Assembly: GCA_009701575.1 (NCBI GenBank)
Contig: WLJX01000012.1
Span: forward strand, 1 to 38,780
Length of the DNA: 38,780 nucleotides
Direction: 5' to 3'
Origin: Actinomycetota bacterium
Lineage (GTDB): Bacteria; Actinomycetota; Actinomycetes; Nanopelagicales; Nanopelagicaceae
The notes beneath the pieces are model-generated. The model had not been told where the DNA came from. It did not search any database and worked only from the letters and a program-made list of their open reading frames with translations. The position numbers and the translations under genes were made by a program. This document shows positions 22,303 through 37,983 of this stretch, in pieces (within the stretch, counting starts at the first letter, position 1; each line of letters starts with the position of its first letter).

Positions 22303-23133
22303 CTAGGCAAGTACCTTGCGGATTGCCTCTGGAATGCAATCAATAATCATCGAAGCCGAGATTGGTCCACCTTTTGAGGCAAGACGAGCCGCGCGGTCAT
22401 GAATAAAGGAGGCAGTCGCTGCTATCTCCGCAAATCTATTTGCTGAACTCAATATTTCAATCTCATTGGTTGCAGCAATAGCGCCGATAATTCCGGCGAG
22501 CACATCACCAGAACCTGCGGTTGCAAGCCATGGAGTTGATTCAGGAAGTTCAATAATAATTTCATTATTTGCTACAACCGTTTTTGATCCTTTAAGTAAA
22601 ACTGTAACTCCCAAGATGTCGGCACATTCTTGGGCCCACCGTTTTGGATCATCTGAAATCTCATCAGCTGATACCGCAATTCCATACCTCCCAAGAAGTT
22701 TCGCTAACTCACCAGCATGTGGAGTTATCAAAGTTGGTTGCTCTAATTTATCTGCCAAATAAAGCGCGCCCGCATCCAAAATAGTTGGCACACTTTGTAA
22801 ACCAATTACTTTAAACCAACGATGACGAAGCCAAGTTGTATAATCATCAAATTTGTCGCTAACAATTCCAGATCCCGCAACCCATGCCGTTACAGCGCCA
22901 GGTTGCACGACAACTTCTGGAGATGAATGCAGAACAAGATGAGCAAGTCCGGATGAACTATAGAAACGAACCATTCCAACACCTGTTGCAACAGCAGCGC
23001 TGGTCGATAGAACAGCAGCACCTGGATATTGCGCAGAACCAGTTATAACCCCGAGTACACCTCTGGAATATTTATGGTCATATACCTTTGGAATTGCCAC
23101 ACATTTTTTGCTTTTTGCTTCGCTCCAGATCAT
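22303..23133 (-). CDS. nnrD: ADP-dependent NAD(P)H-hydrate dehydratase
   Basis: A 276-aa ribokinase-like repair enzyme that dehydrates damaged NAD(P)H hydrates. Family blocks: HKYSRGVLGVITGSAQYPGAAVL near the N-terminus (phosphate-binding), TLITPHAGELAKLLG in the middle, and WLATAGSGDVLAGIIGA with the catalytic Asp of the GSGD motif near residue 210. In many bacteria this domain is fused to an NnrE epimerase; here only NnrD is present and no epimerase is in the window. First gene of the minus-strand run; a TACTGT box lies 8 nt before the ATG. Confidence 0.92.
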   Translation of the reverse strand: MIWSEAKSKKCVAIPKVYDHKYSRGVLGVITGSAQYPGAAVLSTSAAVATGVGMVRFYSSSGLAHLVLHSSPEVVVQPGAVTAWVAGSGIVSDKFDDYTTWLRHRWFKVIGLQSVPTILDAGALYLADKLEQPTLITPHAGELAKLLGRYGIAVSADEISDDPKRWAQECADILGVTVLLKGSKTVVANNEIIIELPESTPWLATAGSGDVLAGIIGAIAATNEIEILSSANRFAEIAATASFIHDRAARLASKGGPISASMIIDCIPEAIRKVLA

Positions 23134-23180
23134 GCTTCAAACAGTAGTCCAATGTTCTAATCTCGCGTAGTGACCGCTGA

Positions 23181-23219
23181 TATAGTTCACGCTTATATAT
23201 TCTAAATTTTCAGGGGGAG
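23181..23219 (+). promoter_or_regulatory. promoter -10 box and strong RBS of the ABC/adenylation operon
   Basis: TATAGT at 23181-23186 is a good -10 hexamer; no convincing -35 stands 16-18 bases before it. A GGGGGAG ribosome binding site occupies 23213-23219, nine bases before the ATG at 23229. It is the strongest RBS I see in the window and sits in the 95-bp divergent gap to nnrD. Confidence 0.5.
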
Positions 23220-23228
23220 ATCACATAA

Positions 23229-24272
23229 ATGCGCGTTAGAAAAAATTTGATTCCAGCGCTTCTACTTCCCTTAATTTTGGTGTTGACTCCCGGAATTTCG
23301 AATGCAGATACAACGGCACCAGCTCTTGCGTGTGTTCAACCAGCATCAACTCCAAATGAAGTTGGAACGTTAATCTTGGCCGCACAAGTTCAACAATTGA
23401 CTTCCACGGAATGGGGAATCAGACAGGGTTGTTTCAAGAAGTATGGGCTAACCGTTAAGACAACTTCAACAACAAGTTCAACTATTGGAATCGCAGGCGT
23501 GATTAGTGGAACATATGACTTGGCAGCCACAAGTCCGGTCAATTTAATTCAAGCAAAAATAAATAGCGGATTCGCTGGAAAAATTATTGCTCCTAAACAT
23601 GGATATTCGACTGAAGAACTTGCACGGGCTAAGCGAGAGCCATTTTTCCCAAATGAATTGCTACTTCAGACTGCACTAATCGTGCGATCAGATTCAAGAA
23701 TCAAGAGTTGGAAAGACCTTGATAAGAAGAAAATCGCCACGCAAACTTTCCAGAGCGCAGATCATGCGGGTCTGCTTCTCGGCATGCGAAGTGAAGGGGT
23801 AAGGAATCCAAAGTCAGAAATTTTGTCCATGCCACCATCTCAAATGGTTGATGCATTAAAGCGCGGTGATGTTGATGCCGCTATCATGAATGATCCATTC
23901 GCAACACAGATGGTCTTAGATGGTGGCAGGATTATTGGGTACCCGCAAACTTTTTTTGCTGAACCCGGTTCCGCTGTTGTATTTTTTAGTTCGGCTGAAA
24001 TTATTAAGAATAAGTCCAAAGAGATGCGAATCTTTAGAAAGGCAACTTTGGAAATTAATAAGTTGTTGAACAAGCCTGAAAATGAGGCTTCATTCCGTAA
24101 GGTCGTTGTTGATATTACGAAAGTTACCCCTGAAGTGGCAGCGAAGACCCGGATGCCACTTATGATGGAGAAAAACGTGACTATTCCTGAAATTGCATAT
24201 ATCCCAAGTAAACTTAAGAAAGTCGGCTTCTTGAAGGGGCGCTTTGACCTAGGGCCACTATTTTTTAACTAA
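23229..24272 (+). CDS. secreted ABC-transporter substrate-binding protein, NMT1/SsuA-like (copy 1)
   Basis: A 347-aa periplasmic-binding-type protein. Signal peptide LIPALLLPLILVLTPGISNA with cleavage near residue 26. The start of lobe 1, LILAAQVQQLTSTEWGIRQGCFKKYGL, is typical of NMT1/SsuA/TauA binding proteins, followed by GIAGVISGTYDLAATSPVN; KDLDKKKIATQTFQSADHAGLLLGM and RGDVDAAIMNDPFATQM are the family's later landmarks. C35 and C68 are conserved in copy 2 and could form a disulfide; ALAC at 32-35 is not a consensus lipobox. It is close in sequence to the gene at 24287, so the pair arose by duplication. The ligand is unknown. Confidence 0.85.
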   Translation: MRVRKNLIPALLLPLILVLTPGISNADTTAPALACVQPASTPNEVGTLILAAQVQQLTSTEWGIRQGCFKKYGLTVKTTSTTSSTIGIAGVISGTYDLAATSPVNLIQAKINSGFAGKIIAPKHGYSTEELARAKREPFFPNELLLQTALIVRSDSRIKSWKDLDKKKIATQTFQSADHAGLLLGMRSEGVRNPKSEILSMPPSQMVDALKRGDVDAAIMNDPFATQMVLDGGRIIGYPQTFFAEPGSAVVFFSSAEIIKNKSKEMRIFRKATLEINKLLNKPENEASFRKVVVDITKVTPEVAAKTRMPLMMEKNVTIPEIAYIPSKLKKVGFLKGRFDLGPLFFN

Positions 24273-24286
24273 GGAGATAGCTTGAA

Positions 24287-25324
24287 ATGAGAAGATTTCG
24301 TGAGATTTGTGCCTCATTTGTAATTCTTGCGATAACAATTACAGCCACAAATACTGCGGTATCTGATACCCAAATCACTCTTGCTTGTGAATCGTCAGCT
24401 CCTGTAACTGAAATTGGTCGATTAACAATTGGTGCTTCGATCCAAAATTTGCCCTCGGTGGAATGGGGAATTCGACAGGGATGTTTCAAGAAGTATGGAT
24501 TGACGGTTAAATCTGCTCCTGTTGCAACATTCCCTCTTGGGCTTGCCGGATTGATAAGCAAAAGTTATGACCTTTATGGAACAACTCCAGTTAATTTCCT
24601 AAAGGCTATTGCAGATGGCACATTTAAAGGAAAAATCGTTGCGTCTAAATATGGTTACACAGCTCCCGAACTCGAAAGAGTTAAGCAGGAACCCTTATAC
24701 CCAGGCGAGCTTCTAATGGGAACGGCTCTTATAGTTAAGAAGAGTTCCAATATTTTTAGTTACAAAGATTTAGTGGGCAAGAAAATCGCGATTCTCTCCT
24801 TTCAGGGCGCGGATCACGCGGGGATTTTACTTGCGATGCGCGAGCTCGGCATAAGAAACCCAAAGATTGAATTTTTGGCGATGTCAAATACTCAAATGTC
24901 GGATGTGTTAAAGAATGGCGACGTGGATGCCGTTGTATCTGCTGATCCAATTGCCTCCCAAATAATTCATGATTTTGGAAGGTTAGTTGCCTATCCAGGT
25001 ATATATATGCAGGAGATTGGAACTGCCTTTGTTTTTATTACCTCTGAGGAAACTTCAAAGGAAAAGACATTAGCCCTCAGAGCTTTTCAAAAAGCTAATC
25101 TTGAAATAAATAGATTATTGAACAAGCCTGAAAATGAAGCGAGTTATCGGAAGACGCTATCGGAAGTCTCAAAAGTAAGCCAAGAAGTCGCGAATAAAGT
25201 TCGAATCACAGTTTTTTCGGAGAACAACGTAACTATTTCACAACTAGCCTACTTGCCGAGCAGGCTCAAAAAAGTAGGGTTCTATAAAGGTAGATTTGAA
25301 CTAGGGCCGGTCTTATTTAGGTGA
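24287..25324 (+). CDS. secreted ABC-transporter substrate-binding protein, NMT1/SsuA-like (copy 2)
   Basis: A 345-aa paralog of the preceding protein: shared EWGIRQGCFKKYGLTVK, SADHAG/GADHAG, LEINRLLNKPENEAS(F/Y)RK and a common end (LKKVGF.KGRF.LGP..F). Signal peptide at residues about 1-26. C34 and C66 match C35 and C68 of copy 1. Binding-cleft segments differ: copy 1 has NDPFATQMVLDGG where copy 2 has ADPIASQIIHDFG, and copy 1 has GTYDLAATSPVN where copy 2 has KSYDLYGTTPVN, so the two may bind related but different ligands. AAGGAG lies ten bases before the ATG. The stop overlaps the first permease gene by 4 nt. Confidence 0.85.
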   Translation: MRRFREICASFVILAITITATNTAVSDTQITLACESSAPVTEIGRLTIGASIQNLPSVEWGIRQGCFKKYGLTVKSAPVATFPLGLAGLISKSYDLYGTTPVNFLKAIADGTFKGKIVASKYGYTAPELERVKQEPLYPGELLMGTALIVKKSSNIFSYKDLVGKKIAILSFQGADHAGILLAMRELGIRNPKIEFLAMSNTQMSDVLKNGDVDAVVSADPIASQIIHDFGRLVAYPGIYMQEIGTAFVFITSEETSKEKTLALRAFQKANLEINRLLNKPENEASYRKTLSEVSKVSQEVANKVRITVFSENNVTISQLAYLPSRLKKVGFYKGRFELGPVLFR

Positions 25325-26094
25325 AACTGCTTCCAGTTCAAAGAAAATTCGTGAATATTGGACAGAACTACGCTTTAACTTTTGGTATCACAGCTGCACT
25401 TTGGGAGTGCGCCGCTCTTACCGTAAATTCTAGAAGTTTCCCTCACCTGAACTCTGTCTTGTTGGATTTACTTAATCTCATAAAGAATATTGATTTCTGG
25501 AAGAGTCTGATCGTAACTTTCAACTTAACCATAATTGGTTTTGTGATCGGGGCGCTATTCGCATTTGCACTTGGTCTAGCTACTGCATTGAACAAAAGGC
25601 TAAATCTCTTGTTGTCTTCGTCCATTAACTTTTTGCGCTCTATCCCATCAGTGGTTTTTCTACCCTTGTTGGTCGCATCAATCGGAGCGTCTGCGAGGAC
25701 GGCAATAATACTTACCGCACTAGTGGTTTCGCTAAAATTGGTAATCTTTGTGTCCAGAGGTGTCCTGGAAACCGAAATGGAACATATTGAATTTGCAAAG
25801 ATCTATCACTTAAGTACTTTCTCTAAAATTTGTAACATTTATATACCGTCTTTATTTTCGGTGGTAAGCACAGGATTTCGACTTTCAGCGTCAAGAGCTT
25901 TTGGCACTGTAATTGCTTCGGGCATAATTATTGGTACGCCTGGCTTGGGCCGAGATTTACTTTTCGCCGAATCAAATGCGGAGTACGAAAGAGTGTTTTC
26001 TTACGTAATCATTTTGGGCATTGTCGGAACGTTGATTTATGCGACCTTTAACGTAATTGAACGCCAGTTTATACATTGGCGCGTGAATATATGA
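25321..26094 (+). CDS. ABC-transporter permease, SsuC/TauC-like (permease A)
   Basis: A 257-aa inner-membrane protein with about six membrane segments. The SsuC/ThiX-type core is recognisable from NFLRSIPSVVFLPLLVASIGASARTAII. The EAA loop, which should dock on the ATPase, is degenerate (EHIEFAKIYHLSTFSKICNIYIP) and lacks the usual glycine. TPGLGRDLLF and the last two hydrophobic segments follow. The GTG start at 25321 overlaps the stop of binding protein 2. The protein probably pairs with permease B at 26076, which it overlaps by 19 nt. Confidence 0.85.
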   Translation: MKLLPVQRKFVNIGQNYALTFGITAALWECAALTVNSRSFPHLNSVLLDLLNLIKNIDFWKSLIVTFNLTIIGFVIGALFAFALGLATALNKRLNLLLSSSINFLRSIPSVVFLPLLVASIGASARTAIILTALVVSLKLVIFVSRGVLETEMEHIEFAKIYHLSTFSKICNIYIPSLFSVVSTGFRLSASRAFGTVIASGIIIGTPGLGRDLLFAESNAEYERVFSYVIILGIVGTLIYATFNVIERQFIHWRVNI

Positions 26095-26861
26095 AGAAGA
26101 AGGTTAATAGTATTTTTTGGACGTTATTGCTGCCCTCTTTTATCTTAATTTTCTGGGAGATAGTCTCTGGGTTCAAGCCAAATCCTTTCTTCCCACCACC
26201 TTCTAGAATTGCCGGCGCGATTCAGGAAGTCATTTCTATTGAATGGATTTTATCTTCAGTAAAACCTAGTTTCATTGTGCTCTTTGTTGGTTATTTCGTT
26301 GGAGCTATTTTGGGTCTTGTAATTGGATCGCTCTTGGGCGAATTTGTGAAGATGCGAATTGTTTTCCTACCAATTTGCAATTTCATAAGAAGTATTCCAA
26401 GTGTTGCCAAGGTTCCTTTGATTTTATCTATTATGGGATTGGGATTATCGACTCGAATTTCAACGGTAGTAATTGCCGTTTTGTTCCCCGTTCTCATGTC
26501 CACCGTGCGTGCGATAGCGGCTACGAGAAATGAGCTCCTGGATCTCAACAGAACACTTAAATTTGGAAGAATTAGAGGGTTAGTTTCGATTCGAGTTCCT
26601 GCCGCGATTGGTGAAATTCTCACCGGACTACACGCTAGCGTCCAAGTTGCAGTATTGGCGATGATCGTAAGTGAAATGTTGGGCTCTGGAGTTGGAATTG
26701 GCGCTTTCATTATTCAATCTCAATCTACCTTTAGAATAGCCAACATGTGGGTCGGAGTATTTATTGTCGGTTTAATTGGCCTTGCTCTGAATTACCTATT
26801 TATGAAGATTGAACGAAAAGTGGCCCCTTGGTACTTCAAATCTAAGGGTTTAATTGCATGA
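26076..26861 (+). CDS. ABC-transporter permease, SsuC/TauC-like (permease B)
   Basis: A 261-aa inner-membrane protein with about six membrane segments. Landmarks: WEIVSGFKPNPFFPPPSRI, CNFIRSIPSVAKVPLILSIMGLG, an EAA-like loop (LDLNRTLKFGRIRGLVSIRVP) and MLGSGVGIGAFII. Only moderately similar to permease A, so the transporter likely has a heterodimeric channel, whereas Ssu/Tau/Thi systems usually encode one permease that forms a homodimer. The start at 26076 overlaps permease A by 19 nt; the ATG at 26091 (MKKKVNSIFW) is a good alternative that would reduce this to 4 nt. The stop overlaps the ATPase start by 4 nt. Confidence 0.85.
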   Translation: MAREYMKKKVNSIFWTLLLPSFILIFWEIVSGFKPNPFFPPPSRIAGAIQEVISIEWILSSVKPSFIVLFVGYFVGAILGLVIGSLLGEFVKMRIVFLPICNFIRSIPSVAKVPLILSIMGLGLSTRISTVVIAVLFPVLMSTVRAIAATRNELLDLNRTLKFGRIRGLVSIRVPAAIGEILTGLHASVQVAVLAMIVSEMLGSGVGIGAFIIQSQSTFRIANMWVGVFIVGLIGLALNYLFMKIERKVAPWYFKSKGLIA

Positions 26862-27634
26862 AAGATAGAAGTAAACATATTGAAATCCTGAATCTCTCAA
26901 AGAGTTTTGAAAATAGTGGATCCGAGCTTAAGGTTTTAAAAAATATCTCACTGGATGTTAGTAGCGGTGAGTTCATCGCAATATGTGGGCGCTCAGGAGT
27001 TGGCAAATCGACGCTTATTAGAATGATTGCTGGACTAGTAAAACCAAGTTCTGGAACTGTTGCAATTGACGGTGATTTGGTAGTTAATCCGCCAAATTCG
27101 ATGGGTTTTGTAACTCAAGATTATTCCCGTTCACTACTACCATGGTTTTCAGTTGAAAAGAATGTAGCCCTACCTTTTAAAGCAAAGAACTTTTCAAAGC
27201 TAGAGAAGAAAAGAAAAGTAGAGGAAGTCTTGGAAGCAGTAGGTTTGGCCGATTTCGCCAAATTCTATCCTTGGCAGCTTTCTGGTGGAATGCAACAACG
27301 AGTTGCAATTGCCCGCTCTCTCGTCTTAGATCCTAAGTTACTTCTTCTCGACGAACCATTTGCCTCTGTCGATGCCCAGATTCGGTTGGAGCTTGAAGAC
27401 TTGATTGCAAATATTGTTTTACAGAAGAAAATAACAACGATAATAGTTACCCACGATATTGATGAAGCGATTTACTTAGCGGACCGAGTAATTCTCATAT
27501 CTGACTCTCCAGCGTCAGTATCAAAAATAATTCAAGTAAAATTGGCGCGCCCAAGAAGCCAGACTGAAACTAGATCAGATCCAAAATTCGTCAAGATGCG
27601 CACCCAGCTTTATGCATCTTTGAGAGGCAAATAA
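26858..27634 (+). CDS. ABC-transporter ATP-binding protein, SsuB/TauB-like
   Basis: A 258-aa ATPase with all motifs: Walker A GRSGVGKST near residue 43-51, Q-loop VTQDYSRSLLPWF, signature LSGGMQQRVAIARSL, Walker B LLLLDEPFASVDA, and H-loop THDIDEAIYLADRV. Pattern and length match the SsuB/TauB group. It energises the permease pair encoded just upstream. The stop is followed after one base by the TTG start of the first adenylate-forming enzyme, so transporter and enzymes are cotranscribed. Confidence 0.92.
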   Translation: MKDRSKHIEILNLSKSFENSGSELKVLKNISLDVSSGEFIAICGRSGVGKSTLIRMIAGLVKPSSGTVAIDGDLVVNPPNSMGFVTQDYSRSLLPWFSVEKNVALPFKAKNFSKLEKKRKVEEVLEAVGLADFAKFYPWQLSGGMQQRVAIARSLVLDPKLLLLDEPFASVDAQIRLELEDLIANIVLQKKITTIIVTHDIDEAIYLADRVILISDSPASVSKIIQVKLARPRSQTETRSDPKFVKMRTQLYASLRGK

Positions 27635-27635
27635 C

Positions 27636-29075
27636 TTGGATATATCTGGAATTCTTAATTTTTTTGCGAGTTTAAAACCTGACGCACTTGCACTTGTTGA
27701 CGATTCAAGTGAGATAACTTTTTCGCAATTAGATACAAATGTACGTCGAATAGCTCAACTACTTCAGATAAATGAAATCGACACCAGTAGTTTGGTTTGT
27801 ACGATGCTTCCATCGACCCTTGATTGGCAAGTAACTTTAGCTCTTCATATTCTTGGTGCTAGTTCATTCTCCAAGCCCGTAGGAAGCAGGCTCGATGAGG
27901 CCTTACGTCCAGATTGGCTAATTTCGACTCAATTAAATCCTGATTTTCCAGAAGATCGAACTTTCATAGTTGATTCGAATTTCGAAAAGGCAGTAAACCA
28001 AACGGATAAATTGAAGAGTGCTCCCGGATTCGCTTCACCCGATTTTCCAGCTAGGTATTTTTTCACAAGTGGGACTTCAGGTGCGGCAAAATATTTGGTG
28101 GTTACAGCAGAAAACCTGCTTGCAAAGATTAAGCATCAAGGAAGTAGCGAGTTAGTTGGAGATCGAGATGGCTTGAACTTATGGCAATTTGGTTCGACTC
28201 AAAGTTATCGAGTCGCACTCCGTTCTCTCAATGAAGGTAGAACTTTCTACACATCTGGGTACTACGACTACAGGTTGCCAAAGATTCTGAATAAATATCC
28301 CATCAGAACTATTTCTGGTTCCCCGATTCAAATAGGTTCAATGATTGATTCTTTGATTCAGACTGGAACAAAGGTACCTAGGGTGCGAAACGTGATTATG
28401 GGTGGAAGCGCCCCAACGCAACTTCAGATTAATCGAATTCGCCAGCACATGGATGCTCGAATTTATAACTCATATGGTTCAACGGAATTAGGTTTCGTTT
28501 CTATGCATGAAATTGTTGAGGGTAAAACCCTTGGTGGGATTATCAGTCCTGAAGTGAAACTTGAAATCGTAGATGAAAAAAATAGCGTGTTACCTAAAGG
28601 CGAAGTGGGAATCATCCGATACGCCAAGGCTAAAATGCCAAGGAGTTACTTCAATTCCGAAGCCGCCACTAACGAATATTTTCAGGACGATTTTTTCTAC
28701 CCAGGTGATTTGGGTTTTCTGGATCAACTCGGTCACTTGCACATCTCTGGCAGGACCAACGAAGTTATGAATCTTGGAGGGGTGAAGATAAGCCCAGAAA
28801 AAATCGAAAATATCGCACTTGGAACTCCAGGAGTTTTAGATGCCGCAGCTTTCCCGATGATCGATAACAAAGGTGTCATTAGGCTGGCGCTTGCATACGT
28901 TAAAGATTCCGTATTCATTAAAGAGGACTTGCAAGCCAGATACCAGAAAGAATTAACTGGAATTAACATTTCAAAATTTGTGGAAGTCGAAGAAATCCCA
29001 CGTAATGAAAATGGCAAAATACCGCGAGCAAATTTGGCCGAGATAATTTTCGGAAGCGGTCCAAGAAATGATTAG
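27636..29075 (+). CDS. adenylate-forming enzyme (ANL superfamily), copy 1
   Basis: A 479-aa acyl-adenylate-forming ligase. Core motifs: P-loop TSGTSGAAK (144-152), A5 YNSYGSTELGF (278-287), A7 YPGDLGFLD (355-363), A8 hinge SGRTNEVMNLGGVKISPEKI (371-390) and catalytic lysine K461 in NENGKIPR. These residues predict ATP-dependent activation of a carboxylate, then transfer to CoA or a carrier. The protein is shorter than most acyl-CoA synthetases (commonly 500-560 aa), mainly in the N-terminal domain. No fused carrier domain is present. The substrate is unknown; placement after an importer suggests it activates the imported compound or a product of it. TTG start; the stop overlaps copy 2 by 8 nt. 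Confidence 0.85.
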   Translation: MDISGILNFFASLKPDALALVDDSSEITFSQLDTNVRRIAQLLQINEIDTSSLVCTMLPSTLDWQVTLALHILGASSFSKPVGSRLDEALRPDWLISTQLNPDFPEDRTFIVDSNFEKAVNQTDKLKSAPGFASPDFPARYFFTSGTSGAAKYLVVTAENLLAKIKHQGSSELVGDRDGLNLWQFGSTQSYRVALRSLNEGRTFYTSGYYDYRLPKILNKYPIRTISGSPIQIGSMIDSLIQTGTKVPRVRNVIMGGSAPTQLQINRIRQHMDARIYNSYGSTELGFVSMHEIVEGKTLGGIISPEVKLEIVDEKNSVLPKGEVGIIRYAKAKMPRSYFNSEAATNEYFQDDFFYPGDLGFLDQLGHLHISGRTNEVMNLGGVKISPEKIENIALGTPGVLDAAAFPMIDNKGVIRLALAYVKDSVFIKEDLQARYQKELTGINISKFVEVEEIPRNENGKIPRANLAEIIFGSGPRND

Positions 29076-30495
29076 CGTTCATAAAAGATTGGAATTTTGG
29101 GCTGGTTTAAAGCCTAATGAACTTGCCTTTGTTGATGGCAAAAAAGAGATCACTTTTGCAGAGTTGCATATTCACACACTTCAGGTTGCAACTATTTTGA
29201 ATGAACTCGGCATTAGAAGGGGGGATTTAGTTTGCACGATGCTTCCTGCCTATTTAGACTGGCCAATAGTTCTTGCCCTTCAAATACTTGGTGCAACAAG
29301 CTTCGCAAAACCCACCACAGCGAACTTCGATTCCTATGCCGAACCAAGGTGGTTAATTGCCTCTAAAGAGCATTCACAATTTTCAACTCAAAATACGATA
29401 GTGCTGAACGAGAAAGTTGCAGAAAAAGTTAATGATGCCAAACTCTTCGTTCCAGAAGTCGAACCACATAATTTCACCCAACCAATTAGGTTGAGTTCCA
29501 CGAGTGGTACTACTGGTGAGTCCAAATACCTCAGATATTCTGCCGCGGAGATGCATCCAAGATTGGTAACGCCCAGTGGCGTGAATTTTTTGGGAAATGG
29601 AAAGTTTCTAAATCTGATGCTTTTTGGTGCTGCTCAAAGTTACAACTGGGCACACAGATGTTTGCTTGAAGGAAAGACTTTTTTTATGTCGGCATCAACT
29701 AATGAAAGTAATTTTGAATATTTACAAAAATATGGAATCGAAACTGTTTATGGTTCACCTCAACAAATATCTGCGCTTCTAGAAACTGCAGACAAATTCA
29801 GCCACAGTCTAGATGAAAAATATAATTTAGTTATTGGAGGAAGTGCTCCTTCAGGCAAGCTGCTTTCAAAGATTAGAGAAAAGCACAAATGCGCAATCTA
29901 TAATTCACATGGATCGGCAGAAACTGGCTTTATATCTATGTGTGATTTAACGGTCGAAAACTCCCCAGGTCTTATTATTCATCCTAATTCAGTAGTTCAA
30001 ATATTGGATGAGAATGACGTAGAATTTGGATTCGATAGGGTTGGGTATATTCGCTACAAAATTCCACATGCTTCTAATTCATATCTGAACAATCCAGAAG
30101 AAACAAAGAAAAGTTTCAAGGACGGATACTTTTATTCGGGCGACATGGGCTATAAGACAAAAGATGGTCGATTACACATAACAGGCCGCAGCAATGAAGT
30201 CATAAACTTTGGCGGAGTAAAGATTAATCCAGAACAGGTAGATGGATTAGTTCTTGCTGAAACTGGCGTACAAGATGCAGCTTCTTTCGCGTTGGATGAT
30301 GAGTCCGGAATTCCTAAGTTAGCGGTAGCACTTGTCGTGGATCACGAATTTGATGAAACAGCATTTTTAAGTTCCTTAAAGGCGAAATTCACAAGGGCAG
30401 TAATCGCTGAGATATTCAAAGTGAACTCAATTCCCAGAAATCCAAATGGCAAAATACTGAGACGTGAATTAAGCAAGAAGTTCAGCAGCAAATGA
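29068..30495 (+). CDS. adenylate-forming enzyme (ANL superfamily), copy 2
   Basis: A 475-aa paralog of the preceding enzyme. P-loop TSGTTGESK (145-153); A5 is altered to YNSHGSAETGF; A7 YSGDMGYKTKDG; A8 TGRSNEVINFGGVKINPEQV; catalytic lysine in NPNGKILRREL near 462. N-terminal landmarks shared with copy 1: LVCTMLP..LDW and LGA(S/T)SF(S/A)KP. All catalytic residues are present in both copies, so the pair may use two different acids or act in sequence; nothing here tells which. The ATG lies 8 nt inside copy 1, and the stop overlaps the next gene by 4 nt. Confidence 0.85.
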   Translation: MISVHKRLEFWAGLKPNELAFVDGKKEITFAELHIHTLQVATILNELGIRRGDLVCTMLPAYLDWPIVLALQILGATSFAKPTTANFDSYAEPRWLIASKEHSQFSTQNTIVLNEKVAEKVNDAKLFVPEVEPHNFTQPIRLSSTSGTTGESKYLRYSAAEMHPRLVTPSGVNFLGNGKFLNLMLFGAAQSYNWAHRCLLEGKTFFMSASTNESNFEYLQKYGIETVYGSPQQISALLETADKFSHSLDEKYNLVIGGSAPSGKLLSKIREKHKCAIYNSHGSAETGFISMCDLTVENSPGLIIHPNSVVQILDENDVEFGFDRVGYIRYKIPHASNSYLNNPEETKKSFKDGYFYSGDMGYKTKDGRLHITGRSNEVINFGGVKINPEQVDGLVLAETGVQDAASFALDDESGIPKLAVALVVDHEFDETAFLSSLKAKFTRAVIAEIFKVNSIPRNPNGKILRRELSKKFSSK

Positions 30496-31976
30496 TGATT
30501 ACAAAATACAAACGCGGTGCCGGAATTGCTTTGGTACTTGTACTTTGTGCTCTACCTATAGTTTGGCTGTCAGGCACCACTTGGGGTTCGACTACAGACG
30601 ATCTATTGCCAACGCTAATAAGTATTGAAAATTGGCGGCTTTTCTTCTGGGGATTTAGTCGCTTTGGAACACTTGTTCCGTTACTGGCAAAGCCCTTCAC
30701 GGATATGCGATCAAATCTGCTCTTCCAAAATTCTATTCACGCCGTCTCACTTATAGTTTTTGTTTATGCTCTTTCTCGAGTGTTCTATAGGAATAGAACT
30801 AAATCTGCGAATAGAACGCTCGTGTTTGTACTTCTTGTTTTTCTATTTTCAATAACTCACTTGGTCTATTTAGAACTTCTTATTTCGGGGTTACCTTATG
30901 CGGCGCCGCTTGGAATATTTGGGTTATCACTTTTGATTGTAAATTCGAATTTGAAAAGAATAATTATTGTTCCCATCTTGATCATTTTTACAGCAGTATC
31001 CTGTTGGGTGAATCCCCTAAACGGGTACTACTTGGCCCCACTTTTACTTGTATTCCTCTCGCTGAAAAAATTCAAGAATGTTTTCTACGAATTAACCCTT
31101 TCATATCTATTGGTTAATTTTGGGATTTTCTTTGTAATACTTGGTTTAGCTAATGGAGAAACAGGCGGAACTGTTACCCCAAATTTCCGTCCTTTCCAAA
31201 TTTATCACTGGTGGATTCTCCTATTTGCAATCCAAGGCTTCTTAGTATTGCGAGCGATAATTCGTCGAGAATTTAAGAAAAATCAGTTTAGCTATTTAAG
31301 CTTTCTTCTGACTTGGGTATCTATCTTTGCCCTCACAAGTCTTCGTCACATTCACAATAACGGAGAGGCAACTCGGTATTTCATAACTGCAGCATTTGTC
31401 TCGATGTGCATAACAATGAAGCTTCTCGAAGAACTTATATTTGAGATTGAATTCGTTCAAGTTAGGGTAACAAAATTCTTAGATTTCTTCTCGAAAAAAA
31501 GAGTTCTCTCCGCCTCAGTTCTGGCTTTATTACTTGCGAATGTCCTGATTAGCCAGAATCTAGTAAGTGACTTTCCCCTACAACAGCCGCAGAAGAAGTT
31601 GATGGGAGAAATTTTTAAGAGTAAATCTGAACCATATCGATTCGCTTCTGGTGATTTTTGGTACGCATGGACTACAAAAATTTATATGGATCGCCCTGAA
31701 GATATTTTTGTCACTGCCTGGGAATCCGAATTTCAATATGACACGGCTACAGATTCTAAGAAAGCTATTCAGTCCCGGCTCAAAGATGGCGACCTAGGGC
31801 TCTGTTTTGGCAAGGTTAGAACATGTGAGAGAGAGATTAGGACGGCTGCCTTCCGAATGTATGGCGCATTTAAAGTTGAAGTTAAGGTCACGGATTCGTA
31901 CCTTATTACTAAGGAACCAACTCTTGTTCATAGCTTGAGGCTAAGTATTACTTCGAAGAAAAGCGCGAATTTCTAA
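30492..31976 (+). CDS. polytopic membrane protein, GT-C-like
   Basis: A 494-aa membrane protein with about 10-11 hydrophobic segments in the first 360 residues and a soluble C-terminal domain of about 130 residues (after LVSDFPLQQPQKKL), probably outside the membrane. The first loop contains an Asp pair (STTDDLLP), the kind of acidic motif seen in lipid-dependent GT-C glycosyltransferases, but I recognise no specific family. It is the last gene of the operon and starts on the stop codon of adenylating enzyme 2, so a connected function is likely. Its last 29 bases overlap the convergent GT2 gene. Confidence 0.7.
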   Translation: MMITKYKRGAGIALVLVLCALPIVWLSGTTWGSTTDDLLPTLISIENWRLFFWGFSRFGTLVPLLAKPFTDMRSNLLFQNSIHAVSLIVFVYALSRVFYRNRTKSANRTLVFVLLVFLFSITHLVYLELLISGLPYAAPLGIFGLSLLIVNSNLKRIIIVPILIIFTAVSCWVNPLNGYYLAPLLLVFLSLKKFKNVFYELTLSYLLVNFGIFFVILGLANGETGGTVTPNFRPFQIYHWWILLFAIQGFLVLRAIIRREFKKNQFSYLSFLLTWVSIFALTSLRHIHNNGEATRYFITAAFVSMCITMKLLEELIFEIEFVQVRVTKFLDFFSKKRVLSASVLALLLANVLISQNLVSDFPLQQPQKKLMGEIFKSKSEPYRFASGDFWYAWTTKIYMDRPEDIFVTAWESEFQYDTATDSKKAIQSRLKDGDLGLCFGKVRTCEREIRTAAFRMYGAFKVEVKVTDSYLITKEPTLVHSLRLSITSKKSANF

Positions 31977-32706
31977 CTATTTTTAATTTGTGCAACATAA
32001 ATAGAGAAAGAATTTTAAGTGCACCATTCCCATATCGAATTGTCTGAATAATACTTATTGAAGAAGAGTCATCGCCATACCGCACCGGGATAGGAATATC
32101 ACCAATCCGAAGCCCTAGAGCACATGCTTGGACCAATAACTCTTGATCAAAGGCGAAGTTGTCGCTATTTGATTCGAACCTAATTTGATTTAGCGCTTTT
32201 GCCGAGTAGGCCCTAAGTCCAGAATGAAAATCGCCAAGATTCTGACCGAGTAAAACATTTTCAAAAATAGTTGAGAGCCGGTTTATTAGATATCGCCAAA
32301 CTGGCATTCCACCATCAAGCGCCTCTCGTCTAGTTCTGATTCTATTTCCTAAAACTAAATCACAATTGCCCAGCAAAATTAATTCGGCCATGATTAGGGC
32401 AACTCTTGAGTCATACTGATAATCGGCATGAAGCATAATTACGACTTCCGCGCCATTATCTAGTGCAAATTTATAGCCAGACTTTTGAGTAGCCCCGTAT
32501 CCGCTATTTTTCTCATGCGTTATGACATTCACACTATTTGCCTTAGCGACTTGGGAAGTATTGTCTGTGCTGCCATCATCAACAACTACAATTTTTGTTA
32601 ACTCACTTGGTAAATCCCTCAAAGTACTTTCAAGTGTTGCTGCTGAGTTAAATGCAGGAATAAAAACCCATATTTTTTCTAAATCAGCGTGAGTCATATT
32701 TCCCAT
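31948..32706 (-). CDS. GT2-family glycosyltransferase (DPM1/undecaprenyl-phosphate-sugar type)
   Basis: A 252-aa GT-A glycosyltransferase. WVFIPAFNSAATLESTLRDLP opens the fold, IVVVDDGSTDNT binds nucleotide, NSGYGATQKSGY continues the donor site, and LHADYQYDSR contains the DxD-like metal site. The later DFHSGLRAYS and DNFAFDQELLVQA fit the polyprenyl-phosphate mannose/glucose synthases. No membrane anchor is fused. It probably makes a lipid-linked sugar donor for GT-C enzymes such as the one at 33823 (inference). It is convergent with the membrane gene at 30492 and divergent from the epimerase gene. Confidence 0.88.
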   Translation of the reverse strand: MGNMTHADLEKIWVFIPAFNSAATLESTLRDLPSELTKIVVVDDGSTDNTSQVAKANSVNVITHEKNSGYGATQKSGYKFALDNGAEVVIMLHADYQYDSRVALIMAELILLGNCDLVLGNRIRTRREALDGGMPVWRYLINRLSTIFENVLLGQNLGDFHSGLRAYSAKALNQIRFESNSDNFAFDQELLVQACALGLRIGDIPIPVRYGDDSSSISIIQTIRYGNGALKILSLFMLHKLKIVRNSRFSSK

Positions 32707-32730
32707 TGCCGCAATCTACCCTCTACTTCA

Positions 32731-32747
32731 ATTCAAAGCCTTTGAAT
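32731..32747. promoter_or_regulatory. perfect 17-bp palindrome, candidate operator
   Basis: ATTCAAAG-C-CTTTGAAT is an 8-1-8 perfect inverted repeat in the 115-bp divergent gap between the GT2 gene (start 32706) and the epimerase gene (start 32822). The single-base centre makes an RNA hairpin poor and a dimeric repressor site more likely. No matching regulator is encoded nearby. Confidence 0.45.
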
Positions 32748-32792
32748 CCCTCATTTGGTATGGGATGATTCCTCGAGCCTAATAGTGGGCGG

Positions 32793-32817
32793 TATAAACC
32801 GAGTGAGTACATGGGGA
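32793..32817 (+). promoter_or_regulatory. -10 box and RBS of the epimerase gene
   Basis: TATAAA at 32793-32798 is a good -10 hexamer with no clear -35; GGGGA (32813-32817) lies four bases before the ATG at 32822. The palindrome at 32731-32747 ends 45 bases upstream of the -10 box. Confidence 0.45.
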
Positions 32818-32821
32818 TTCA

Positions 32822-33838
32822 ATGAGCAGTAAAAGACTTCTTCTTACTGGTGCATCTGGATTTGTCGGCAGTCATGTGCTGCGCCATGTACTAGTGAAAA
32901 CTGATTGGGAGATAGTTTGCCCAGTTACATTTTCGCACAAAGGATTACAGGACAGAATTCGACTATCTATAGCAGGCAACGAGGATCATTTAAAACGAAT
33001 AAAACTTGTTAAGTGTGATTTGGCCTATCCAGTATCTAGTCTTACCGCACAAGAAATTGGAAAAATTGATTATGTTCTTAACTTGGCTAGTGAGAGCCAC
33101 GTAGATCGAAGTATTTCTGAACCAGCAAATTTTATAATTAACAATGTTTCGCTAATTTGCAACTTGCTTGATTGGGCACGTATTGCCAATCCGGAGAAAA
33201 TTATTCATATCTCTACCGATGAAGTTTACGGCCCAGCGCCAATCGGTGCGGCCCATCGCGAATGGATAGATCAATACTTTCCAAGTAATCCATACAGCGC
33301 AAGTAAAGCTGCCCAGGAGAGCATTGTTTTCTCTTATTGGCGTACATACGGTTTACCCGTAATGATTACAAATACGATGAACTTAATCGGCGAAATGCAA
33401 GATCCTGAAAAATTTATACCGATGATTATGCGCCGAATCATTTCGGGTGAGAAGGTTTCAATTCATGGATCTCTCGCAGGAGAAATTGGAAGCAGGTTTT
33501 ATCTTCATGCTAGAAACCAAGCCGATGCACTGCTGTTTCTTCTCGATAAAGAATTTCCTAAGTATGGCGAGTCTGATAAACCAGCAAAATTTCATATTGT
33601 TGGCGAGCGAGAGATAAATAATCTGGAACTTGCCCAATTTATTGCCGATCACATGAAGCGGGAATTGAATTATGAAATTGTTGATTTTCACACCTCTAGA
33701 CCTGGACATGATTTGCGATACGCCTTAGATGGCTCATTAATTGCAAAGGCGGGATGGCGAGCCCCAGTATCTCTCTTCGATTCGCTTCGACGAACAATCG
33801 ATTGGAATTTAGCCCATCCGGAATGGTTAAAAATTTGA
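32822..33838 (+). CDS. NAD-dependent sugar-nucleotide epimerase/dehydratase (RmlB-like SDR)
   Basis: A 338-aa extended short-chain dehydrogenase. The NAD-binding loop LLLTGASGFVGSHVL starts at residue 6; LNLASESHVDRSI, the catalytic ISTDEVYG and the Tyr-Lys pair in NPYSASKAAQE are all intact, and RPGHDLRYALDGS is the C-terminal block seen in dTDP-glucose 4,6-dehydratases. It likely makes a modified nucleotide sugar for the surface glycan assembled by its neighbours. Substrate is not certain: RmlB is the closest pattern, but other 4,6-dehydratases or 4-epimerases share it. The stop overlaps the next gene. Confidence 0.88.
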   Translation: MSSKRLLLTGASGFVGSHVLRHVLVKTDWEIVCPVTFSHKGLQDRIRLSIAGNEDHLKRIKLVKCDLAYPVSSLTAQEIGKIDYVLNLASESHVDRSISEPANFIINNVSLICNLLDWARIANPEKIIHISTDEVYGPAPIGAAHREWIDQYFPSNPYSASKAAQESIVFSYWRTYGLPVMITNTMNLIGEMQDPEKFIPMIMRRIISGEKVSIHGSLAGEIGSRFYLHARNQADALLFLLDKEFPKYGESDKPAKFHIVGEREINNLELAQFIADHMKRELNYEIVDFHTSRPGHDLRYALDGSLIAKAGWRAPVSLFDSLRRTIDWNLAHPEWLKI

Positions 33839-35700
33839 GGTTTAAGAGCAACCTGGAAAATGCTCGCGAATTAAAGTGGCGAGTATCGATTGGCCTCCTA
33901 GTCCTTTTTTCGGGATTTACAAATCTATGGGGCCTAGCCAATGTAGCGCGAAGCGAATACTACGCAACAGTTCCAAAGAGCATGAGCAAGAATTTTGGTA
34001 ATTTCATCTTTGGAGCCATGGATCCAGGCGGTGTAATCACAGTCGATAAAATTCCAGGCTCATTCTGGATACCAGCAATTTTTGTAAAGCTTTTTGGGTT
34101 TAGTACCTGGGCTATTACGGTCCCAAATGCCTTAGCTGCAATAGCGGCAACACTGGTGATTACTTTTGTCGTTAAAAAGTACTATGGAATGACCGCTGGA
34201 TTGATTGCTGGGTGGATTCTAGCGACCAGCCCTATTGTTGTTGCGGTTGCTAGATCGAATCAACCTCAATCCATTTACTACTTGGCTACGGCAATCGCAA
34301 TTAGATATGCAGTAGTCGCACTTAAGGAATCAAGTAGGAAAGCTTTGATTTGGGCGGGCATTTGGATTGCAATCGCTTTTCATACTTACATGCTATTGGC
34401 CTGGGTACTTTGGCCACCTTTGATCATCGGCTATTTAGTAACTTCACAAAGTTGGAGAACTAAGTTAAAGGATCTTTCGTTAGCCGGTTCGATTTCTTTT
34501 CTGACTTCAGGATTTTGGATTCTGTTAGTTGCTTTAATCCCATCGTCACATCGACCTTATATTGGAGGTACAAATTCTAATTCTGGTCTGGAATTAGTTC
34601 TCGGATATAACGGACTCGGTCGATTTACTCAGAAGTTCGTTGCAGGCGCAGATGTTACCTCTCGCACATTTACCCCACCTTTTGGGGGAGAACCTAGTCC
34701 TTTTAGATTATTTAATGTCTTCTTAATTGGCCAAATAGGTTGGTTACTCCCGACAGCAATTGTGTCAATCGTTCTATTGGTTTATTTAAGACATAAAAGT
34801 CCAGAGTTTATCTTTGCAACCTCTTATTTAATAGTTCAATACCTCGTATTTTCAGCGGTAAAAGGTATGCACCAGTTCTATGTTTCCACAATGATTATTC
34901 CTATTGCATTGATTATCGTTATCGGTATCTATCAATTTGGAAAAGAAAATAGACCATATTTTATTATTACAGTATTAATGATCACGCTGGCTTGGGCTTT
35001 TCTAATCACACTTGATCTCAGAACTTATTTATTTCCAACACCGTTATTCCAAGCTGCGCTATTGATTGGTTTCTTGGTGATTAGCGTATTTTCATTTAGG
35101 AGAATTCCAGAGATCGCCTCCTCCGCCCTATTTGTTGGGGCACTCGTCTTTACTCCCGCGATTTGGTCTGTGGACACAGTTAAATTGTCTGATGCCTATA
35201 ATCCAATGGCAGGTCCTTCTTTCGCAGAGTTGGGCTTGGCTAATGCGCAAAAGGCTATGAATCGAGTCGGTGGACTTGTCGAGAAACAAGAGAAGAGAAA
35301 GGTTGCCGCAAAAGACGATAAGAAATTGATCGATTACATCCGCACCAAATCAGATTCAAAATTTGCCTTAGCAACGTTCACAGGTATGACGGCGGCGCGT
35401 TATATAACTGCCACCGAAGATTTTATCTACCCAATAGGAGGATTTAATGGGGAGGACCCAGATCCTACGCTCGCAAAGTTCAAGTCCTTGGTAGAAACTG
35501 GCTCAATTAGATTCGTTCTCACGAACGCTGGAAATTCTTTTAACCCAGAAGCTTCTGATCGGAAGAAAGATTATTCGAGAGGAAATAACGGGAGGGCGAA
35601 GACAGGCAATAAAGAATCGATTCAGAATTGGGTTAATCAGAACTGTGCCTTAGATCCATATTCGATTTACGCCGCTCGCTTACTTGATTGCAAGAAATAA
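33823..35700 (+). CDS. GT39/ArnT-type membrane glycosyltransferase
   Basis: A 625-aa polytopic protein with about 12 membrane segments followed by a soluble C-terminal part. The first extracellular loop carries the GT-C pattern MDPGGVITVDKIPGSFWIPA (acidic catalytic Asp and the DKxP motif), as in ArnT/PMT relatives that transfer sugars from polyprenyl-phosphate donors. The C-terminal domain, with DYIRTKSDSKFALATFTGM, AARYITA and PIGGFNGEDPDPTL, matches the tail of actinobacterial GT39 proteins. ATG 33823 overlaps the epimerase by 16 nt; TTG 33835, on the stop codon itself, is the alternative. The GT2 gene 1.1 kb upstream may supply its donor. Confidence 0.85.
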   Translation: MVKNLRFKSNLENARELKWRVSIGLLVLFSGFTNLWGLANVARSEYYATVPKSMSKNFGNFIFGAMDPGGVITVDKIPGSFWIPAIFVKLFGFSTWAITVPNALAAIAATLVITFVVKKYYGMTAGLIAGWILATSPIVVAVARSNQPQSIYYLATAIAIRYAVVALKESSRKALIWAGIWIAIAFHTYMLLAWVLWPPLIIGYLVTSQSWRTKLKDLSLAGSISFLTSGFWILLVALIPSSHRPYIGGTNSNSGLELVLGYNGLGRFTQKFVAGADVTSRTFTPPFGGEPSPFRLFNVFLIGQIGWLLPTAIVSIVLLVYLRHKSPEFIFATSYLIVQYLVFSAVKGMHQFYVSTMIIPIALIIVIGIYQFGKENRPYFIITVLMITLAWAFLITLDLRTYLFPTPLFQAALLIGFLVISVFSFRRIPEIASSALFVGALVFTPAIWSVDTVKLSDAYNPMAGPSFAELGLANAQKAMNRVGGLVEKQEKRKVAAKDDKKLIDYIRTKSDSKFALATFTGMTAARYITATEDFIYPIGGFNGEDPDPTLAKFKSLVETGSIRFVLTNAGNSFNPEASDRKKDYSRGNNGRAKTGNKESIQNWVNQNCALDPYSIYAARLLDCKK

Positions 35701-35730
35701 TTTGGTGAAGAGCACAAACTAAGTCCAATT

Positions 35731-35744
35731 ATCACCCAGGTGAT
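35731..35744. terminator. short inverted repeat between convergent genes
   Basis: ATCACCCAGGTGAT forms a 5-bp stem with a CCAG loop in the 64-bp gap between the convergent GT39 and membrane-protein genes. It lacks a T-run on either side, so termination is only a possibility. Confidence 0.25.
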
Positions 35745-35764
35745 GTGCCATTCAACCACTTTAA

Positions 35765-36616
35765 TTATTCACTTATTTTTTGGCGCTGTAAGAAACTGCC
35801 TATAAAAAGTGCAAGCCCAATCAACAATTCAATAATTCCACAAGTTAAAAATGGGGCAATAAGTGGATGCGTTGCGAGTGGCAACGCTTCGCGCGCTAAA
35901 GATTCAGTTGAAATACTCGCTTGATGCGCAATAAGCGAATCAACGACGAGGTAAACGGTAGTAAGTAACGCTCCTTCAAGAAAAATGATTAAACCAACCC
36001 AACGTAGCGCATCCTTTAAAGCCTTCGCAAAGATGGCGTATAAAAACAGCATAAGCAAGGAGAGTATAAAGAGCAAGATGACGGCGAGATTTAGGCCAGT
36101 TTTCACCTGAGAGATATTTGGCCCATCTTTCTGTACCTGCAACCTGATTGGATCTATCTTGTCTATTTCACTTTTTGCACTTGAGAATTGTGGATCAATA
36201 AACTTCAAGCTTTCAAATGCCAATCGCACGATGGGTCTTAAATCTACTGAAACTTCACTTTCCGAACCGCTTGTGTAATAAACATAAACACTATTTGAAA
36301 TTAGGTCTATCTGCTGATGCAACAAAGGATTCCCAAGCAGCTCTGTCACCGCTGCTGAAATTTGCGGGCCTTTCTTTATTAGAAGTTTGCGCTCCTCACC
36401 GGTTGCACCCTCGAGAGTCTTACTGACCAAATACTTACCCGCATTTTGCTTGAGGCTCTGGCTCTCCCAAAGGGTATGTGTAACTTTGTCTATCGGATTC
36501 CCAATACCTACTGCTAAAAAGAGGGATCCCAGAATTGAAAAAAGTGTTAGAAAGAGAACAAAGAACGCCATTGCTGGCACTGATCCAGCACGTTTTGCTC
36601 TGAAAAGATTTTGCAT
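35765..36616 (-). CDS. membrane protein of unknown function
   Basis: A 283-aa protein I do not recognise. One N-terminal membrane segment (about residues 15-37, AMAFFVLFLTLFSILGSLFLAV), an extracytoplasmic domain of about 130 residues (40-170) containing IDLISNSVYVYYTSG and VDLRPIVRLAFESL, then three membrane segments (about 172-195, 205-225, 250-272) and a short cytoplasmic tail. The layout (one TM, outer domain, three TMs) occurs in small sensory or assembly proteins, but no motif supports a role. It stands alone, convergent with the GT39 gene. Confidence 0.7.
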   Translation of the reverse strand: MQNLFRAKRAGSVPAMAFFVLFLTLFSILGSLFLAVGIGNPIDKVTHTLWESQSLKQNAGKYLVSKTLEGATGEERKLLIKKGPQISAAVTELLGNPLLHQQIDLISNSVYVYYTSGSESEVSVDLRPIVRLAFESLKFIDPQFSSAKSEIDKIDPIRLQVQKDGPNISQVKTGLNLAVILLFILSLLMLFLYAIFAKALKDALRWVGLIIFLEGALLTTVYLVVDSLIAHQASISTESLAREALPLATHPLIAPFLTCGIIELLIGLALFIGSFLQRQKISE

Positions 36617-36657
36617 AGTGAACCTTAGCGACTTATTGGCTTGCTATGTAAATACAC

Positions 36658-36673
36658 CTACCGAATTATGAGT
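36658..36673. repeat. 16-bp exact match to the anticodon arm of the tRNA at 37910-37983
   Basis: CTACCGAATTATGAGT here is identical to 37937-37952 inside the tRNA gene and in the same orientation. It lies in the 103-bp non-coding gap between two minus-strand genes. The match ends abruptly on both sides. It could be an attachment-site remnant of an element inserted at the tRNA, but no integrase is visible. Confidence 0.5.
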
Positions 36674-36719
36674 CGTTCTAATCTTGAATCTCAGCGTGCC
36701 TAGTTGTTTCTTGAATGTG

Positions 36720-37775
36720 TTATGGAGTCGTACAGGGAGGTAGATCTGTATCAAACGCATAAGGATCTATGAATTCCACTGTCCCAGGTATATCCACGCA
36801 AGTTAGTTGCGTAGTGTTGAAAGCATCAGCTCCAATGCTTATTAGATTTGGCGGCAAGACAATGCTTGAAATTGCAGTGTTATAAAACGCCCCTTGTCGT
36901 AAATGGGTAATACCACTTCCAAGCGTGACGCTCGATAATTTAGTTGAATCGGCGAAGAGATAGTTGCCAATCTCCGTAACTCCATCTCCAATATCCAAAC
37001 TAACAAGATCCGGCATTGTATTAAAAGCTTCGTTACCAATCGCTAGAACTGAATCGGGAATCACGATACTTGTTATGCCTGGACGGTGCCAGAAGGCTTG
37101 GCTGGCAATCTCTACGACAGAATCATTTATAACTAGTGAGCCCAGGCAATCAATTTGACCTGTTAAAACTCCGACTTCGTCCACCACATAGTAGCCACTT
37201 ATTCCACATGGAAACTCTCCGGCAAGGGAAATTGCTTCTAGCTCGCTGCTCTCAATTGTTATTCTGTAGATATCTGAAGCAAGCACCTCGGCTGAACCAA
37301 ATACTAAATTTACAGAGCTGTCAGTTCCGTCTTCACCGCTCGCACTTCCTTCACCATCATTACTTGAAAATGTCCCGTCGTTTGAAACCGATATTGTGTA
37401 ACTAGTGTTAATTAGGTCGCCATTTTCCTTGTACAACTTAATTAAAAAAGATTTACCCGCGCATCCATCACTTGACTCTGATTGATCTGTTGTATCGACC
37501 TGCGAGAGCATAAGTCCTGAAAACATGAAGGCACCAGGGTCACCATTTTCAAACTGCGAGTATGGGGTAATTAAAATTTCTGAATCACAAGCCGTTGTCT
37601 GGGCGACTCCTTGGCCGAATTCAACTGGATTATTGCTATTCAAATTAATACTTGCAGCAAGGGTTGAACCGAGTGCGATTACGCCAACAAGGGCGCTAAT
37701 ACCAAGAACCAACTTAAGGTTTTTGAGATTGCGAGGGGACTTAACTTCAAAATTACTAAAGTTAAGAAGAGACAT
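36720..37775 (-). CDS. secreted/anchored protein with BspA-type leucine-rich repeats
   Basis: A 351-aa protein. The N-terminal hydrophobic segment (about residues 23-42, LVLGISALVGVIALGSTLAA) is preceded by a 20-residue basic cytoplasmic stretch, as in long signal peptides or type II anchors. Residues 43-205 form a beta-rich domain (FGQGVAQTTACDSEILITPY, then an acidic SNDGEGSASGEDGTDSS linker). Residues about 212-345 hold roughly six LRR_5/BspA-type repeats of about 23 residues (IPDSVLAIGNEAFNTMPDLVSL, DGVTEIGNYLFADSTKLSSV). These repeats bind surfaces or proteins in other bacteria. It lies between the two copies of the 16-bp repeat and ends CTTP. Confidence 0.8.
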   Translation of the reverse strand: MSLLNFSNFEVKSPRNLKNLKLVLGISALVGVIALGSTLAASINLNSNNPVEFGQGVAQTTACDSEILITPYSQFENGDPGAFMFSGLMLSQVDTTDQSESSDGCAGKSFLIKLYKENGDLINTSYTISVSNDGTFSSNDGEGSASGEDGTDSSVNLVFGSAEVLASDIYRITIESSELEAISLAGEFPCGISGYYVVDEVGVLTGQIDCLGSLVINDSVVEIASQAFWHRPGITSIVIPDSVLAIGNEAFNTMPDLVSLDIGDGVTEIGNYLFADSTKLSSVTLGSGITHLRQGAFYNTAISSIVLPPNLISIGADAFNTTQLTCVDIPGTVEFIDPYAFDTDLPPCTTP

Positions 37776-37909
37776 AGCACCCTAATTTCGCTAATCGTTC
37801 GTACCGTTAATGTTTAAGAACTGAGAGCGGCAACCTGGTGGCTGAGGTCAATCAATAAATTCATAGTAGGGGTGCGTAGATACAAATACAATGAAATTAG
37901 ATCGATAAG

Positions 37910-37983
37910 TGGGGCGGGTCGGGCTCGAACCGACGACTACCGAATTATGAGTTCGGGGCTCTAACCAACTGAGCTACCGCCCC
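37910..37983 (-). tRNA. tRNA with CAT anticodon (elongator Met, or Ile2)
   Basis: A 74-nt cloverleaf on the minus strand. Acceptor stem GGGGCGG/CCGCCCC with discriminator A; D-arm AGCTCAGTTGGTTAGAGC; anticodon stem CCGAA/TTCGG with loop CTCATAA (anticodon CAT); T-arm GTCGG-TTCGAGC-CCGAC. CCA is not encoded. It lacks the unpaired 1-72 start of initiator tRNA (G1-C72 here is paired) so it is not fMet. Whether C34 is lysidinylated (tRNA-Ile2) or left as Met cannot be told confidently from this; Met is the default call. Confidence 0.93.
37937..37952. repeat. second copy of the 16-bp repeat (within tRNA-CAT anticodon arm)
   Basis: This is the tRNA copy of the exact repeat at 36658-36673. It spans the anticodon loop and the 3' side of the anticodon stem, a known class of target for tyrosine integrases. 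The two copies are 1,279 bp apart, in direct orientation. Confidence 0.5.

Follow-up and report, generated by a model that had tools for sequence, protein, structure and literature searches.

Importers of the taurine-transporter (TauT) family (SsuABC/TauABC/OphFGH) combine a substrate-binding protein (SBP) of the NMT1/SsuA type with BPD_transp_1 permeases and an NrtD/SsuB-like ATPase. In Rhodopseudomonas palustris, SBP-dependent importers are encoded beside acyl-CoA ligases, as in the case of the ABC transporter next to pimFABCDE and in that of the p-coumarate SBP RPA1789 with the ligase RPA1787. The TauT family includes a carboxylate importer, the phthalate transporter OphFGH; the ligands of COG0715 SBPs of R. 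palustris were compounds that carry several carboxylic acid and/or amino groups, and there was a correlation between SBP profiles and what the acyl-CoA ligase PimA prefers (PMC3223731). An actinobacterial SBP-dependent carboxylate importer is PatDABC of Rhodococcus jostii RHA1, which takes up phthalate/monoalkyl phthalate (PMC10973024). Here, an operon of eight open reading frames (ORFs) at positions 23229–31976 of a 38,780-nt contig from the Nanopelagicaceae (WLJX01000012.1, contig C4 of a 1.17-Mb, 79% complete genome; this entire stretch is called the window) is described, which joins an importer of this kind to two adenylate-forming enzymes of the ANL superfamily. Its most probable function, to which we assign a probability of about one half, is the import of small carboxylic acids and their trapping as acyl-coenzyme A (acyl-CoA), with each ANL matched to an SBP.

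The operon resembles the TauT systems in the types of its SBPs, permeases, and ATPase, but differs from them in its pair of paralogous SBPs, in encoding two permeases that are distinct, and in the ANLs within the operon. The arrangement of importer and ligase recalls R. palustris; however, the ligase of that organism sits among catabolic enzymes, whereas the window operon has at least two ANLs and none of these partners, and its relatives add specific secreted proteins. PatDABC can be likened to it by description, although we know of no ANL enzymes in the PatDABC operon. The uptake strategy is thus known in kind, and what is new is a diversified, lineage-restricted form of it with secreted proteins. 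Its unusual features are the joint multiplication of SBPs and ANLs around one channel, the lack of catabolic partners, and secreted proteins exclusive to these loci. As the initial annotation had presumed, no description of this gene set was found in the literature searched, which left most subscription papers outside.

All eight genes lie on the plus strand and are tightly coupled as one operon (Table 1), the successive junctions being a 14-nt gap, three 4-nt overlaps, a 1-nt gap, an 8-nt overlap, and a 4-nt overlap. Pfam searches placed seven of the products above the curated cut-offs and bore out the inventory of two SBPs, two permeases, one ATPase, and two ANLs given in the initial annotation. 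The 19-nt overlap also listed there was a start-codon artefact, because TTG 26076 had been chosen as the start of TMD2, which begins with ATG 26091 (ATGA junction). As its first seven genes are found again in other genera, the arrangement exceeds chance.

Table 1. Genes of the operon and features of the surrounding genomic island, with positions in the window.
Feature	Position	Strand	Basis or remark
SBP1, secreted NMT1/SsuA-type binding protein	23229..24272	+	type I-like signal peptide, Cys C35 and C68
SBP2, paralogue of SBP1 (52% identity)	24287..25324	+	Pfam/NCBIfam search, sequence comparison
TMD1, permease, BPD_transp_1	25321..26094	+	Pfam/NCBIfam search
TMD2, permease, BPD_transp_1	26091..26861	+	ATG start, 4-nt overlap with TMD1
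ATP-binding cassette (ABC) ATPase	26858..27634	+	motifs GRSGVGKS, LSGGMQQ, LLLLDEPF, THD
ANL1, adenylate-forming enzyme	27636..29075	+	full catalytic motifs
ANL2, adenylate-forming enzyme (38% identity to ANL1)	29068..30495	+	Pfam, motifs
Polytopic membrane protein, about 10 transmembrane segments	30492..31976	+	GT-C-compatible topology; outside the conserved set
NAD(P)H-hydrate dehydratase (Carb_kinase), island boundary	22303..23133	-	domain search
Genomic island, 14.8 kb, tRNA-Met to NAD(P)H-hydrate dehydratase gene	23134..37908		G + C about 0.41 versus 0.456 in the flank
GT2 polyprenyl-phosphate-sugar synthase-like glycosyltransferase, island neighbour	31948..32706	-	Pfam/NCBIfam
dTDP-glucose 4,6-dehydratase-like short-chain dehydrogenase/reductase, island neighbour	32822..33838	+	Pfam/NCBIfam
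PMT_2/YkcB-type glycosyltransferase, island neighbour	33754..35700	+	domain search
Secreted LRR_5 (BspA-type) protein	36720..37775	-	N-terminal VEFGQGVAQTTACD module common to the relatives' secreted proteins
tRNA-Met(CAT), other island boundary	37909..37983	-	gene comparison with relatives

The evidence that importer and ligases form one system comes from their distribution. The SBP clade (45–55% identity) occurs in 5 of 296 Nanopelagicaceae genomes from three genera, namely that of the window, G310 (genus g4), and G197, G221, and G292 (all genus g16), and a profile search for the ANLs at E <= 1e-60 returned the identical five genomes (chance 5e-11 if genomes are independent). Because both clades occur in the same genomes and side by side, the link between importer and ligase is genuine and the two constitute a true conserved unit; transporter and ANLs at unrelated loci were sought and not found. 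A pattern-based scan of a collection of genomes from 84,980 species revealed no further species with the system, and viral contigs gave no match. The importer of genus g6 (SBP 26% identity) was rejected as the same system since no ANL of the clade lies beside it; it appears to be a separate, ordinary importer, and the class-level SBP relatives in three other families (22–28% identity), which have no adjoining clade ANL either, likewise appear to be such. As far as searched, the system is rare, patchy, and lineage-restricted, as expected for a horizontally moving accessory module.

Within each locus the genes named here share one direction. In G310 the order is secreted protein, SBPa, TMD, TMD, ATPase, ANLa, SBPb, ANLb, ANLc, and secreted proteins; in G221 it is SBP, TMD, TMD, ATPase, ANL, and secreted protein. 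G292 has two secreted-protein genes, SBP, TMD, TMD, ATPase, and an ANL that the end of the contig truncates after its start; a second contig opens with the C-terminal part of an ANL followed by secreted-protein genes. In G197, a secreted protein, SBP, and ANL share one contig and two more ANLs end another; the permease and ATPase genes could not be located because the contigs break there. Of the gene order proposed in the initial annotation, the succession SBP-TMD-TMD-ATPase-ANL is thus conserved wherever the contigs can be read (G310, G221, and G292), but none of the four other carrier loci has the terminal membrane protein.

The numbers of SBPs and ANLs rise together, with two of each in the window and two SBPs plus three ANLs in G310, where the second SBP gene directly precedes an ANL gene. 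In the phylogenetic trees, SBPb of G310 is sister to the SBP of G197 (support 93/93) and ANLb of G310 is sister to ANLa of G197 (87/96), and in both genomes, which belong to two genera, the respective SBP and ANL genes are immediate neighbours. This single case, with its moderate support, is probably a co-inherited SBP-ANL specificity pair. SBP1 and SBP2 grouped together in the tree (94/93), which suggests that they arose by duplication inside the window lineage.

By its domain content, the importer is of the NMT1/SsuA/TauA type, its ligand being predicted as a class. SBP1 and SBP2 scored 52.5 and 38.5 bits against Pfam cut-offs of 24.7 and 20.5 (NMT1/NMT1_2), TMD1 and TMD2 match BPD_transp_1, and the ATPase has Walker A, signature, and Walker B motifs. 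The permeases (85 versus 295) and the ATPase (234.9 versus 360) fell below the equivalog/subfamily cut-offs of NCBIfam, in which equivalogs of the taurine, SsuA, nitrate, and SaoX types were compared. Two cysteines are invariant in all seven SBPs, C35 soon after the signal peptide and C68 in a GCFKKYG motif (SBP1 numbering), which suggests a disulfide between them. The seven SBPs have no standard lipobox, their host being monoderm, and an SBP model built from the seven sequences was poor (predicted local distance difference test, pLDDT, 56).

ANL1 and ANL2 contain the AMP-binding domain (88.3 and 83.9 bits versus a Pfam cut-off of 29.9), and all seven full-length ANLs retain motifs A3, A5, A7, and A8 as well as the A10 lysine, as characteristic of the ANL superfamily. 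Among single-domain proteins of solved structure, oxalate-CoA ligase and other CoA ligases come closest to ANL1, though all of them are remote. Catalytic motifs, length, and best solved relatives liken the ANLs to oxalate-CoA ligase, MenE, and 4-coumarate-CoA ligase; in contrast to these, they have small residues at motif A4 and GRxNE at the hinge, and they form a separate, lineage-restricted clade of only remote similarity. The position equivalent to D235 of PheA, mapped through an alignment to linear gramicidin synthetase, is A/T/R/G/R/G/G across the seven ANLs. D235 is the Asp that binds the alpha-amine of the amino acid; as the equivalent position is never Asp, it is unlikely that the substrates are alpha-amino acids. 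The loci contain no small ORF in which a carrier-protein motif was found, so CoA would most likely be the acceptor. For both reasons, an identity as adenylation enzymes of the nonribosomal peptide synthetase type was rejected. Genes for acyl-CoA dehydrogenases in all five carriers indicate that a sink for acyl-CoA exists.

According to the explanation favored here, the two secreted SBPs would bind small, related acids in the surrounding water and pass them on to one common ABC channel formed by TMD1, TMD2, and the ATPase. The cytoplasmic ANLs would then couple the acid to AMP and subsequently, most likely, to CoA, which would trap it in the cell and supply the acyl-CoA metabolism. Each ANL probably fits the ligand of one SBP, so that an added SBP-ANL pair could broaden the substrate range without a new channel, and the same-strand secreted proteins of the relatives probably assist at the cell surface. 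If the specificities are matched, each pair names one lake-water acid together with its enzyme, and the substrate would therefore be testable from both ends. The Nanopelagicaceae (acI), which rank with the most abundant bacteria of fresh water, possess strongly reduced genomes; a cassette of about 9 kb that is accessory and yet retained by a few of them must thus pay its way.

Several observations weigh against this explanation. The SBPs scored far below every NCBIfam equivalog cut-off (at best 65 versus 163.5), and for every member the ligand is predicted only as a class. The His/aromatic residue usual for CoA ligases at motif A4 is missing from the ANLs, so that CoA transfer is not assured. 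Variability at the pocket positions among the ANLs was non-significant (0.27 against 0.43 identity, p 0.07–0.12); it was rejected as proof of differing substrates and is merely suggestive. Acyl-CoA dehydrogenases also occur in non-carriers and therefore indicate nothing beyond a sink, and no dedicated catabolic gene was found downstream of the ANLs. Furthermore, tree support is modest and most forks among the ANLs were not resolved.

The operon forms one end of the genomic island. In two congeners (G008, G014) the site is empty and the tRNA-Met gene directly abuts the dehydratase gene, and in a further genome (G022) just a small RbsD/FucU-type gene lies between them. The window diverges from its relatives exactly at the 3' end of the tRNA (CCCCAC|TT versus CCCCAC|CA), and its tRNA-Met lacks the encoded CCA that three close relatives have (37905–37912); the 3' end of the tRNA is thus the likely point of recombination. 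A search for a direct repeat of this end at the far end of the island gave nothing (the two share no word of >=9 nt), and no integrase is among the annotated ORFs of the island. In G310 and G197, too, the system is bordered by the dehydratase gene; therefore different genera use the same site. Judged by these gene comparisons, the tRNA-Met/dehydratase junction is an insertion hotspot. The system also suggests that tRNA-linked islands carry nutrient uptake, besides surface glycans, between genera.

In the relatives, the operon is directly flanked, upstream as well as downstream, by genes of one secreted-protein subfamily, which share its strand and leave gaps of about 50–100 nt. This subfamily is present in four of the five carriers and in none of the 291 other genomes; its members scored 243–448 bits with the full-length profile, whereas the next match in the 296 genomes reached 87 bits and covered the N-terminal part only. 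The window has no member. Its LRR_5 protein, which lies at the opposite end of the island 5 kb from the operon, contains the same N-terminal module (consensus STLAANISLNxGxxVEFGQGVAQTTACD), for which no Pfam family was found. The module as such is more widespread: 53 of the 296 genomes encode it, every one of the five carriers included (1.6e-4 on the assumption that genomes are independent). LRR_5 itself had been considered as a mark of all loci, wrongly, since it is found in some of the neighbours only and the module is the common part.

An ordinary nutrient importer with ligases, beside which the secreted-protein genes would be mere neighbours at the hotspot, is the alternative that fares best, though we regard it as unlikely. 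It is favored by the hotspot character of the insertion site in several genera, by the frequency of surface-protein genes across the family, and by the lack of the specific subfamily in the window, but the exclusiveness of this subfamily to carriers and its position directly flanking the operon on the same strand speak against it. An extended form of the favored explanation, namely a lineage-restricted, modular capture-import-activate system of Gram-positive bacteria in which secreted surface proteins, several SBPs on one channel, and matched ANLs co-diversify on the island with exchangeable SBP-ANL pairs, must be considered doubtful. A role of the ANLs in serving the secreted proteins, or in making a small secreted product, with the activated import modifying these proteins or being carried by them, is improbable. 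While the close association of the subfamily with these loci would fit such a role, the window manages without a member, the protein type is common in the family as judged from the N-terminal module, and the membrane separates the cytoplasmic ANLs from the secreted proteins.

The membrane protein at the end of the operon had no match in Pfam, NCBIfam, or the PDB. Hydropathy indicated about 10 transmembrane segments, a TTDD (Asp-Asp) motif in the first outer loop, and a C-terminal domain of about 138 residues. The GT-C-like label of the initial annotation is thus compatible with the topology, from which it is a fair guess, but no family or structure match backs it. Its sole relative, 26% identical across the C-terminal half, is encoded in G156 next to genes for an FkbM methyltransferase and a DegT aminotransferase, with no transporter or ANL nearby. 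The envelope modification initially proposed, in which the ANL-activated acid would be attached, with the aid of this protein, to a glycan or lipid of the cell surface, is quite improbable: although its gene is translationally coupled to ANL2, sugar-modification genes come next in the window, and the islands of the relatives are rich in surface-protein genes, the protein is not part of the other carrier loci, its relative stands in an ANL-free sugar-modification setting, and neither an acyltransferase nor a carrier protein accompanies the ANLs at any locus read. It is more probable that the membrane protein is a component of the island's glycan half.

Some minor observations concern the surroundings of the operon. 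The sugar-modification block following it extends over positions 31948–35700, and its first gene (GT2), convergent with the membrane-protein gene, shares 29 nt with it at the 3' ends. The proteins bearing the N-terminal module (window 36720–37775, L045, L046, L047, L048, and L074) share the wider consensus STLAANIxLNxGxxVEFGQGVAQTTxCD, have widely differing C-terminal parts, and are often encoded in tandem; a secreted-protein model reached a pLDDT of 35. At L046:99-2912, a single frame of 937 amino acids combines an amino-acid permease with a flavin monooxygenase-like domain, possibly owing to a fusion or an assembly effect.

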